From Aeromicrobium terrae (GTDB lineage: Bacteria > Actinomycetota > Actinomycetes > Propionibacteriales > Nocardioidaceae): a stretch of 64,000 bases of DNA. Position numbers and translations under genes: made by a program. This document shows positions 5,333-23,213 of this stretch, in pieces. The DNA is taken from the NCBI RefSeq assembly GCF_008039565.1, contig NZ_VDUX01000006.1:124001-188000 (forward strand). The letters are read 5' to 3'. Below the pieces are notes generated by a model. The model saw nothing but the letters and a program-made list of their open reading frames with translations. It ran no database searches and was not told where the DNA came from. Within the stretch, counting starts at the first letter, position 1. Every line of letters begins with the position of its first letter.

Positions 5333-5407
5333 CAGTTCCGTTCGCTTGTGCTTGACAGTTGAACGGCGGACCATGGAGGTACAGACACACGCCGAAGGAG
5401 GCACCCC

Positions 5408-5512
5408 ATGTTCGTCCTCATCACCGCCATCAGCGCCCTGACCGTCCTCGGCGTGGCCCGCACCGTCCAGACCGTCGTCCACGACGGCCCCGGACGCGTG
5501 CCGACGCGCTAG
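5408..5512 (+). CDS. Small 34-residue membrane-type peptide
   Basis: A short frame begins at the ATG at 5408 behind a very good ribosome site (AAGGAGG, 6 nt away). It encodes a peptide that starts with a hydrophobic stretch (MFVLITAISALTVLGVA) and ends in a charged tail, VPTR. The peptide looks like a single membrane-embedded helix. It diverges from the LysR gene, and a TTGACA box lies upstream at 5352. I recognise no function. The strong ribosome site and the clean hydrophobic-then-charged pattern are the reasons for believing it. Confidence 0.6.
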   Translation: MFVLITAISALTVLGVARTVQTVVHDGPGRVPTR

Positions 5513-5555
5513 GACGCGGCTCTCCCGAACGGTTCGAGGAACGCGTGGTGCCGCG

Positions 5556-5627
5556 CTCGTCTGGCAAGGCCGAGGAGGAAGGCGCACCGGGGTTGTGCGG
5601 CGACCGACGAGAACGCAGCCAGGCGAG
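5556..5627 (+). ncRNA. Candidate structured RNA or structured repeat, copy A
   Basis: This intergenic sequence can close a 10-bp stem between 5556-5565 (CTCGTCTGGC) and 5618-5627 (GCCAGGCGAG, one G-U pair). The 52-nt interior contains blocks also found in copy B at 23073-23145: GGCCGAGG, ACCGGGGTTGT and CGAGAACG. The two closing stems differ by compensatory changes (U-A to C-G, G-C to A-U), which argues for selection on structure. A strong terminator hairpin follows at 5697. I cannot name a known RNA family. The functional strand is assumed to be the + strand but is not proven. Confidence 0.5.
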
Positions 5628-5696
5628 ATGTGGCGCCGCGTGGGCCCGGACCGTACGGGGGAGTCGTGTCCTAGGGCCTGAGCGAGGCCTCACGCG

Positions 5697-5732
5697 AGCG
5701 ATGACGGGGATCACACCCCGTCATCGCTCTTT
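5697..5732 (+). terminator. Rho-independent terminator
   Basis: A perfect 13-bp stem, AGCGATGACGGGG (5697-5709) with its complement at 5716-5728, encloses a 6-nt loop and is followed by CTTT. It would end transcripts from the small-peptide or RNA region before the acyl-CoA dehydrogenase promoter. Confidence 0.75.
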
Positions 5733-5771
5733 CCGCTTGCCTGCGCACCCATACCGGACGGATACTCGAAG

Positions 5772-5792
5772 TTACCGGCCAGTAAACTGGCC
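5772..5792. promoter_or_regulatory. Overlapping palindromes upstream of the FadE5-like gene (probable operator)
   Basis: GGCCAGTAAACTGGCC (5777-5792) is a perfect 7-bp inverted repeat around AA. It overlaps a second imperfect palindrome, TTACCGGCCAGTAA (5772-5785). The pair ends 32 nt before the start codon at 5825, where a repressor would block initiation. Fatty-acid regulators of the TetR type use sites of this kind; the particular regulator is not identifiable here. Confidence 0.55.
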
Positions 5793-5824
5793 TGGTTCCG
5801 CACCGTCCCACAGATGAGGCAGGC

Positions 5825-7702
5825 ATGAGCCACTACCGCAGCAACCTGCGCGACGTCGAGTTCAATCTCTTCGAGCTCTTCAAGCGCGACGAGATCCTCG
5901 GCTCCGGCCCGTTCGAGGAGATCGACCTCGACACCGCCAAGAGCATGCTGAGCGAGATCGAGCGCATCTCCCGCGAGGACCTCGCCGCGTCCTTCGACGA
6001 CTCCGACCGCAACCCGCCGGTCTACGACCCCGAGACCCACTCGGTCACCATGAACGAGAAGTTCGCCGAGTCGTACCGCGCCTGGATGGACGCCGAGTGG
6101 TGGCGCCTGCAGACCCCCGCCGAGCTCGGCGGCCAGGTCACCCCGGCCTCGATCGTGTGGAGCTCCGCCGAGTTCGTCCTCGGCGCCAACGCCCCGATCT
6201 GGATGTTCGCCTGCGGCCCGGCCTTCGCGCGCATCGTCTTCGAGAACGGCATCGAGCGCGACCAGAAGATCGCGCAGCACATGGTCGACCGCCAGTGGGG
6301 CGCCACCATGGTCCTCACCGAGCCCGACGCGGGCTCCGACGTCGGCGCCGGCCGCACCAAGGCCTTCCCGAACGAGGACGGCTCCTGGAACATCGAGGGC
6401 GTCAAGCGCTTCATCACCTCGGCCGAGCACGACATGGCCGAGAACATCATGCATCTCGTCCTCGCGCGTCCCCAGGGCGTCGAGGGCGTCGGCGGCCCGG
6501 GCACCAAGGGCCTGAGCCTCTTCCTCGTGCCGAAGTTCCACTTCGACCACGAGACCGGCGAGCTCACCGGCGAGCGCAACGGCGCCTACGTGACCAACGT
6601 CGAGAAGAAGATGGGCATCAAGGTGTCCACCACGTGCGAGGTCACCTTCGGCGACTCCTCCACCGGTGGCGGTGAGCCCGCCCGCGGCTGGCTGCTCGGC
6701 GAGGTGCACGACGGCATCAACCAGATGTTCCGCGTCATCGAGAACGCGCGCATGATGGTCGGCGCCAAGGCCATCGCAACGCTGTCCACCGGCTACCTGA
6801 ACGCCCTCGAGTACGCCAAGGAGCGCGTGCAGGGTGCCGACCTGACGCAGGCGTCCGACAAGACCGCCCCGCGCGTCACGATCACGCACCACCCCGACGT
6901 CCGTCGCTCGCTGATGACGCAGAAGGCGTTCGCCGAGGGCTTGCGCTCCCTGATGATCTACGCCGCCACCTGGCAGGACGAGATCATGATCAAGGGCGCC
7001 GCCGGCGAGGACGCCGACCTCGAGGAGGCCGTCAACGACCTCCTGCTCCCGATCGTGAAGGGCTACGGCTCGGAGCGCTCGTGGGTGCTGCTGGGCACCG
7101 AGTCCCTGCAGACGTTCGGCGGTTCGGGCTTCCTGCAGGACTACCCGCTCGAGCAGTACGTCCGCGACGCCAAGATCGACACCCTCTACGAGGGCACCAC
7201 GGCGATCCAGGGCCAGGACCTGTTCTTCCGCAAGATCGTGAAGGACAAGGGCCGCGCCATCGGTCACCTCGCCAACGAGATCCAGGAGTTCGCCCAGAGC
7301 GACGCCGGCAACGGCCGCCTCAAGGTCGAGCGCGAGCTGCTCGCCACCGGCCTGGAGGACACGCAGGCGATCCTCGGTGCCGTGTTCCAGGACCTCATGT
7401 CGGCCAACCCGGCCGAGGAGAGCGGCGAGATCACGAACATCTACAAGGTGGGCCTGAACACCACCCGCCTGGTGTACGTGCTCGGCGACCTGGTCGTCGC
7501 GTGGCTGCTGCTCCGCAGCGCCGAGGTCGCGCTGGAGAAGCTGTCCGGTGACGTCTCCGCTGCCGACAAGGCCTTCTACGAGGGCAAGGTCGCCGCGGCC
7601 CAGTTCTTCGCGCGCAACGTGCTGCCGGGTCTGTCGGCCCAGCGCACGATGGCGGAGAACGTCGACGACTCGATCATGGAGCTCGACGAAGCCGCGTTCT
7701 GA
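5825..7702 (+). CDS. Acyl-CoA dehydrogenase, FadE5-like long form
   Basis: The 625-residue product is far longer than ordinary acyl-CoA dehydrogenases (about 380-400) and matches the FadE5/AidB-like long class, with a C-terminal extension after residue about 480. It oxidises acyl-CoA to trans-2-enoyl-CoA with FAD in the cytoplasm. Visible features are the FAD-binding segment [16 protein letters not shown], the [11 protein letters not shown] segment and the catalytic glutamate region in [15 protein letters not shown]. The ATG follows ATGAGGCAGGC. It has its own promoter region with palindromes at 5772-5792 and a strong terminator directly after it, so it is probably a single-gene unit. Confidence 0.93.
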
Positions 7703-22540: not shown

Positions 22541-23040
22541 GCGAGCCGTTCCGCATCGGGATCGTCTGCCTCGGCAACATCTGCCGGTCCCCCATGGCCC
22601 ACGTCGTCCTCCAGGACCGCATCGACCGCGCCGGGCTCACTGACCAGGTCGTCGTGTCGTCGTCGGGCACGGGCGGGTGGCACCGGGGCGAGCCGATGGA
22701 CCGGCGCGCCGCCACCACCCTCACCGACGCCGGCTATGACGCGACCCGGCACGTCGCCCGCACGTTCTCGCCCGACTGGTACGCCGAGAACGACCTCCTG
22801 CTCGCCATGGACCAGAGCAACTACGCCGACATGATCGAGCAGGCCCCGACCGTCGAGGCGCAGCAGCAGGTGCGCATGTTCCGGTCGTTCGACCCCGAGG
22901 CGCCGAGCCCCGACGCCGAGGTGCCCGATCCCTGGTACGGCGGGCCCGAAGGCTTCGCCGAGGTGCTCGAGATGGTGGAGCGCACGGCCGACGAGATCAT
23001 CGAACGACTTCCGGAGTTTGCGCCCGGGGTGCGTTGGTGA
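22537..23040 (+). CDS. Low-molecular-weight protein tyrosine phosphatase
   Basis: The 167-residue enzyme has the CX5RS phosphate loop near the N-terminus (VCLGNICRSPMAH) and the general-acid loop in VPDPWYGGPEGF. Both catalytic elements of the PtpA/LMW-PTP family are intact. These cytosolic or exported phosphatases remove phosphate from tyrosine residues and often act on capsule or cell-envelope systems. It starts at a GTG overlapping the previous stop. A copy of the structured repeat lies 32 nt after its end. Confidence 0.93.
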   Translation: MSEPFRIGIVCLGNICRSPMAHVVLQDRIDRAGLTDQVVVSSSGTGGWHRGEPMDRRAATTLTDAGYDATRHVARTFSPDWYAENDLLLAMDQSNYADMIEQAPTVEAQQQVRMFRSFDPEAPSPDAEVPDPWYGGPEGFAEVLEMVERTADEIIERLPEFAPGVRW

Positions 23041-23072
23041 AGTCCGCGCAGTCGATCCGGGCGTCATCCGCG

Positions 23073-23145
23073 CCCGCCTGACGAGGCCGAGGTCCGAAGC
23101 CATACCGGGGTTGTCTTGCGAGGGCCGAGAACGATGTCAGGCGGG
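23073..23145 (+). ncRNA. Candidate structured RNA or structured repeat, copy B
   Basis: A perfect 10-bp stem joins CCCGCCTGAC (23073-23082) and GTCAGGCGGG (23136-23145). The loop shares GGCCGAGG, ACCGGGGTTGT and CGAGAACG with copy A at 5556-5627, in the same order and spacing. Two stem positions show compensatory change between the copies. It fills the intergenic space between the phosphatase and the kinase-like gene. No known family was recognised, and the functional strand is assumed. Confidence 0.5.
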
Positions 23146-23213
23146 ATGCGGGGGCGTCCGGGCGGCGCGGGGACTTCGCCAACGTGCCCAGCTTTCCCGG
23201 TAACGTCGCAGGC

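Follow-up and report, generated by a model that had tools for sequence, protein, structure and literature searches.

Two similar sequences in the window, the 64,000-nucleotide stretch of Aeromicrobium terrae DNA that was analysed, probably represent a family of small non-autonomous MITE-like transposable elements, typically of 157-170 bp, whose core would act as a folded transcript. There is strong support for the element sitting at CTAG, often the TAG stop of a gene, with terminal repeats of the DUF4096 IS5-family IS type, and likewise for its plus strand having been kept as a folded rod with an internal-loop core over very large evolutionary distances. A first-pass annotation had proposed a candidate structured RNA, with a dispersed palindromic repeat as the main alternative. 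The two readings are compatible: the element is mobile and its core is structured.

The sequences, at 5556-5627 (copy A) and 23073-23145 (copy B), share the blocks GGCCGAGG, ACCGGGGTTGT and CGAGAACG in the same order and on the same strand, as had been described. Their closing stems do pair and do differ by compensatory changes, but the 10 bp assigned to them are only a portion of far longer arms: by sequence and fold, copies A and B are the centres of larger units, foldbacks of 163-166 bp. The features of the two copies are listed below; A2, A4 and A6 are alignments, A4 comprising 84 distinct copies that were not picked by the core pattern, and R1 and R2 are covariance models, R1 having been built from 33 genus copies.

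5509..5674, plus strand: copy A, whole element, a 166-bp foldback with CTAG at both ends (sequence, fold, core match of 98.5 bits)
5544..5641, plus strand: copy A, modelled core (model R2; 98.5 bits, E 1.7e-21)
5565..5570, plus strand: copy A, invariant 5' core letters CAAGGC (sequence; A4 columns 29-35 at 97-100%)
5612..5616, plus strand: copy A, invariant 3' core letters AACGC (sequence; A4 columns 98-102 at 88-100%)
5509..5520, plus strand: copy A, left terminal repeat, starting CTAGG (sequence)
5663..5674, plus strand: copy A, right terminal repeat, ending CCTAG (sequence)
23027..23189, plus strand: copy B, whole element, a 163-bp foldback with CTAG lost at both ends (sequence, fold)
23060..23159, plus strand: copy B, modelled core (model R2; 72.6 bits, E 3.1e-15)

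When the window was searched with the covariance model, only copies A (98.5 bits) and B (72.6 bits) were clear, the next of the 8 matches listed scoring 18.6 bits (E 0.04). Compared with dinucleotide shuffles, the folds of 5556-5627 and 23073-23145 had z values of -3.28 and -2.87, with 1 of 200 shuffles as good in either case, and the fold of 5540-5645 had a z value of -5.44, with none of 200 as good. The description of both copies as intergenic is nearly true only: the upstream phosphatase gene runs 14 bases into copy B, and copy A begins in a TAG stop, at 5510-5512 in its left repeat, that ends a predicted 34-aa ORF (5408-5512, a weak gene call). The strong terminator reported after copy A was not borne out. 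The hairpin at 5696-5729, 3' of copy A, is a separate 14-bp perfect palindrome with a tail of only TTT, and a terminator scan of 5400-5850 called none.

The core is an internal loop, C-AA-GGCG / AACGC-G, with tandem G.A. In A4, 94.4% of cells were paired, compared with 68.8% after shuffling, and structures slid along the alignment paired in 31-51%. Changes on both sides were found in 29 of the 31 pairs, and there were 560 doubly changed cells against 149.6 (sd 12.1) in shuffles, a value reached by 0 of 500, although related copies are not independent and the significance of such counts is overstated. Alignments A2 and A6 agreed with A4; the number of pairs with a double change, taken alone, was reached in A6 by 15 of 500 shuffles. 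Alignment to the model, as used for A4 and A6, is biased towards the structure; A2 was made without the model, but its structure was derived from A2 itself. The most constant letters were C-AA-GGC(G) opposite AACGC-G, with the two tandem G.A loops at 88-98%; among 80 loci selected by pattern, the core is partly conserved by choice. A conserved G-U pair adjoining a bulged A was present in 66 of 83 cells. On these data, selection acts on the fold of the core. When a Lachnospiraceae MAG was compared with a Streptomyces plasmid, the core was 88% alike over 59 bp with the remaining element unaligned, and this likeness is the strongest sign that the core has a function of its own. At five loci (L033, L034, L035, L043 and L044) a further GC-rich palindrome (GGGGGCACCTCCC-like) appeared to lie near the core match, within the core region, and looks like the insertion of a different repeat.

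Wobble was tolerated mainly on one strand. With symmetric scoring, the outer arms of 158 elements had 471 G.T and 127 A.C, and the cores 174 and 27. The outer arms were biased the same way in all four sets (genus, family, phylum and GTDB), whereas the counts in the genus core region alone were even (8 vs 7). When wobble-rich pairs were left out, the model pairs gave 153 vs 16 and 184 vs 22. The plus strand was the one with the more stable RNA fold in 157 of the 158 elements, as against 315 vs 299 of 616 flanking stretches; related copies are non-independent, so these strand counts are not strict probabilities.

We consider RNA the most likely form of the core, roughly twice as likely as single-stranded DNA, because the conserved G-U beside the bulged A and the tolerance of wobble would favour RNA rather than prove it. 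An alternative in which the plus strand works as DNA, folded while single-stranded (in replication or strand exchange, for instance), is rather unlikely. It would account for a strand-specific fold, and the copies in one genome (G013) appeared to be biased by genome half, with 5 of 5 minus and 4 of 5 plus copies, if the unconfirmed origin lies at the contig start. However, among 12 contig starts the one with a recognisable dnaA was that of G078, whose first half had 8 listed copies, 4 plus and 4 minus (9 of its 12 copies being listed). The hint of a replication-strand rule was thus not confirmed. In addition, the Y1 transposase, the usual enzyme of hairpin DNA, was found in 0 of 49 genus genomes (control 5/14), and the conserved G-U next to the bulged A suits RNA better.

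It is improbable that the element is a plain palindromic MITE, with its pairing maintained solely through gene conversion between the arms or through template switching, and with the fold of either strand being of no consequence. Palindromes can self-correct, and MITE ends, CTAG insertion and long near-perfect arms are all as such an element would have them. However, a palindrome that repair maintains as double-stranded DNA should show no strand asymmetry, and the mainly one-stranded tolerance of wobble therefore counts against it. Conversion would also erase the tandem G.A mismatches and AA loops, which are kept at 88-100%, and the likeness of the core in Lachnospiraceae and Streptomyces is equally at odds with it.

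The element is mobile, probably as a MITE-like passenger of IS5-family transposases. Its foldbacks have arms reaching the element ends, as the terminal inverted repeats of a MITE do. In the A. terrae genome, three copies were 91-94% identical to the copy at locus L045 over the entire 170 bp, and copy B was 96% identical over 130 bp; these matches ended at the element, though the query extended ~760 bp on each side. At L045 the element lies where two convergent predicted genes end. Genome G023 also has both genes, but the element is missing there and CTAG occurs just once, in the only empty site that was read. The element at L045 is flanked by CTAG on both sides, which indicates duplication of the target; duplication of TA and of CTAG look the same at the G023 site. 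By eye, three Selenomonas copies had the 3-base flanks TAA, TTA and TAA on both sides.

A predicted gene ended within 5 bases of the element at 20 of 62 loci and at 18 of 40, a few of these being orthologous pairs. CTAG often supplies the TAG stop in GC-rich genomes, so that insertions there would spare the gene, and repeats that are often right at stop codons are likely to lie inside transcripts. An autonomous element, sought by the outer-end pattern in 10 genomes, was not found; two extra matches resembled solitary ends. These, CTAGGGCGTCCC at position 1501 of L100 and CTAGGGCGCGCC at position 1501 of L105 (reverse strand), lie just past a gene stop and are coreless, possibly the remains of excision or deletion.

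The element ends read CTAG-GGCGTGTC, matching the inverted repeats of IS5-family (DUF4096, PF13340) elements in the same genus and, once, in the same genome. IS5 subgroups, IS427 among their names, have target preferences of TA, YTAR and TNA. Out of nine IS loci examined in the genus, three (L288, L289 and L290) had CTAG-flanked ends reading CTAG-GGCGTGTCT, and one (L295) had TTA-flanked GAGCGCGCGCAGATAGGC, resembling ends found in Streptomyces copies, L196 for example; the remaining five had no clear ends. At least 10 of the 12 letters of the IS end CTAGGGCGTGTC were matched by 20 of 40 genus elements, compared with 3 of 1317 places taken at random in those loci. In Gordonia rhizosphera, the IS end and the element ends of one genome have the 17 letters CTAGGGCGTGTCTCCCA in common. 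This was the only match among the other element-rich genomes, where 17 of 18 IS loci were without matching ends (18 of 30 loci examined).

With PF13340 as the IS5-family profile, no helper transposase was found where recent copies lie. The profile was present in 6 of 49 genus genomes and in 7 of 14 other element-rich genomes, and in 0 of 10 element-bearing genus genomes tested, that of A. terrae included; among the 18 element-bearing genus genomes it occurred only in G024, whose two IS loci lacked matching ends. As the ends match while the helper is mostly absent, the ends point to a helper family, not to a helper copy. Mobilisation of the IS200/IS605 or REP type was rejected, given the counts for Y1 transposase above.

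End types vary, for example CTAGGGCGTGTC, CTAGGCCCTGTG, CTAGTGTCGCGTG, AGAGCGACCGGCAGTAGG and GGAGCTGTGCGAAAATAA, and G078 alone has the types CTAGATGAGTGAGTC, CTAGGGTCTGTT, TAGGTCGTGTCTCC and AGAGGTCGCGC with the same core, so the core is kept while the ends differ both between taxa and inside one genome. Element length by arm extension was 157-170 in 44 of 77 rows; the other rows were shorter, with decayed or short arms, or longer, where the extension ran on, and three contig-edge loci were left out.

The covariance search that the first-pass annotation had suggested yielded many further copies with strong covariation, contrary to the failure it had allowed for. Its other reservation, that the sequence is a mobile repeat, came out true, though the element is not identifiable as a known one. 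Model R1 found 8 copies in the A. terrae genome, where DNA searches gave 5 and 7 places, and found the element in 18 of 49 genus genomes. The element was present in 150 of 294 genomes and 10 of 26 genera of the family (14 candidates scored per genome) and in 32 of 396 genomes and 22 of 236 genera of a phylum sample (10 candidates scored), both samples including the genus itself; copy numbers are lower bounds. Four contigs of draft genome G498 (C69, C70, C139 and C162) start inside the element. Such repeats are likely to interrupt assemblies, so that copies would be undercounted in draft genomes.

The exact core pattern occurred in at least 119 stretches of GTDB genomes, and 74 of the 80 loci listed had actinobacterial titles. 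The other six were three from Selenomonas and one each from Clostridiales, Lachnospiraceae and Polyangiaceae, the last without paired arms and without a model match. A whole-genome search with model R2 found 1, 22, 33 and 18 copies in four Bacillota MAGs, those of loci L176, L197, L206 and L200 respectively; these copy numbers and the AT-richer arms speak against contamination. In phages there was no similarity match to one core, and an exact search for the pattern in viral contigs gave 0 matches. Among plasmids, one core had a match in 1 Streptomyces record and the others in 0, 24, 5, 0 and 19 records, always from Streptomyces.

The neighbours of copy A are genes for a LysR regulator and an acyl-CoA dehydrogenase, and those of copy B for a phosphatase and a fructosamine kinase. 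There was no obvious common neighbouring gene for the window copies or at annotated Streptomyces plasmid loci, and element orientation was mixed, with no fixed association with a gene. A role of the transcript for neighbouring genes was considered from orientation counts and rejected: (-,-) outnumbered (+,+) by 31 to 7 in 62 loci that include repeated orthologues, and a second set of 40 gave 15 vs 11. What had been proposed as a candidate RNA therefore stands in its conserved, covarying fold and in having no credible Rfam match, but not as an ordinary or regulatory RNA at two loci, and the alternative of a dispersed palindromic repeat was well founded in the dispersed copies, unrelated neighbours, either orientation, CTAG sites and IS5-like ends. 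A stand-alone structured or regulatory RNA (riboswitch, sRNA or 3' UTR element) is very unlikely, since the covariation, the conserved loops and the copies seemingly at the same gene end in related genomes (L018/L019, L084/L085) are outweighed by the want of a common neighbour, the occurrence in both orientations, the patchy distribution, the absence from a relative and the transposon-like ends.

For a mobile element with a folded core, we propose that IS5-family transposases would catalyse transposition in trans and that lineages would adapt their ends to different IS5-family elements, of the CTAG type or the TNA type, with the core unchanged. Ends that differ while the core stays suggest that the core must serve propagation of the element rather than neighbouring genes; likewise, neighbours that share nothing obvious and a mixed orientation suggest that selection acts through propagation. 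The core would act as a folded transcript, with the transposition machinery or some widespread cellular factor as its binding partner, and would help the element to use a foreign transposase. MITEs are usually viewed as ends plus filler, whereas here the filler is conserved by structure, on one strand and across phyla, while the ends change. This makes testable how a non-autonomous bacterial element competes for a transposase with a preference for acting in cis, as bacterial transposases have, and it adds to many actinobacterial genomes a large class of structured repeats that is apparently unannotated.

The absence of a described RNA family was upheld. Rfam gave 0 matches at gathering score in the window, and the matches to five loci of our own (four, at E up to 5) and eight foreign loci (two, at E up to 1) were all below gathering score. 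A description of the element was not found among the best-ranked literature matches, ISfinder and most subscription journals being outside the scope of the search. By term count, the main text of a 2024 review of MITEs contains neither "Actinobacteria" nor "Streptomyces" (PMC10969869).

Several known systems resemble the element in part. IS5-family MITEs and DUF4096 IS have the same terminal repeats and CTAG flanks, but the DUF4096 IS whose ends were read lack the core, and the element has in addition a structured core, which is retained as the ends change. ERIC, RUP and REP are short dispersed palindromes, of which ERIC and RUP insert at TA targets; the partner enzyme of REP, Y1, is the one absent from all 49 genus genomes. 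The CORE-SINEs of animals are retroelements with a conserved central domain and exchangeable ends that match different helper elements, a likeness by analogy only, with no homology claimed.

In design, the nearest known system is the Correia element (CREE) of Neisseria (PMC2649163, PMC10969869). As described, it is of similar size (~155 bp) and likewise has inverted repeats, a conserved directional core and target duplication, and its hairpin occurs in mRNA, where it is bound by RNase III (PMC2649163). One CREE of Neisseria gonorrhoeae (L366:1501-1655) has CAAGGCGG ... CAACGCCG, the invariant loop letters of our element in matching strand and order (CAAGGCG / AACGCCG, noticed after the fact), and a distant kinship is possible on this likeness. 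The two differ in their end sequences (TATAGTGGATTAA in CREE), and in CREE the loop is nearer the ends and the interior of the element is larger. Kinship by model was not found: R1 did not match this CREE, R2 gave only 8.0 bits (E 0.09), and the whole Neisseria record had no R2 match at E up to 0.001.

A bolder version of the preferred reading, to which we give little credence, makes the folded core, rather than the transposon ends, the lasting selfish unit, a bacterial counterpart of CORE-SINE or Alu that spread through Actinomycetota and Bacillota by swapping its ends to fit whichever IS5-family transposase was available, with Correia as a distant branch. Its transcript would dock on something universal, such as the ribosome or a protein that binds rRNA, and in this way capture nascent transposase, overcoming the cis-preference of the enzyme. 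In the plasmid collection, two records (NZ_CP119140.1 and NZ_CP119142.1) are Neisseria gonorrhoeae sequences of ~2.17 Mb each, chromosome-sized and filed as plasmids.
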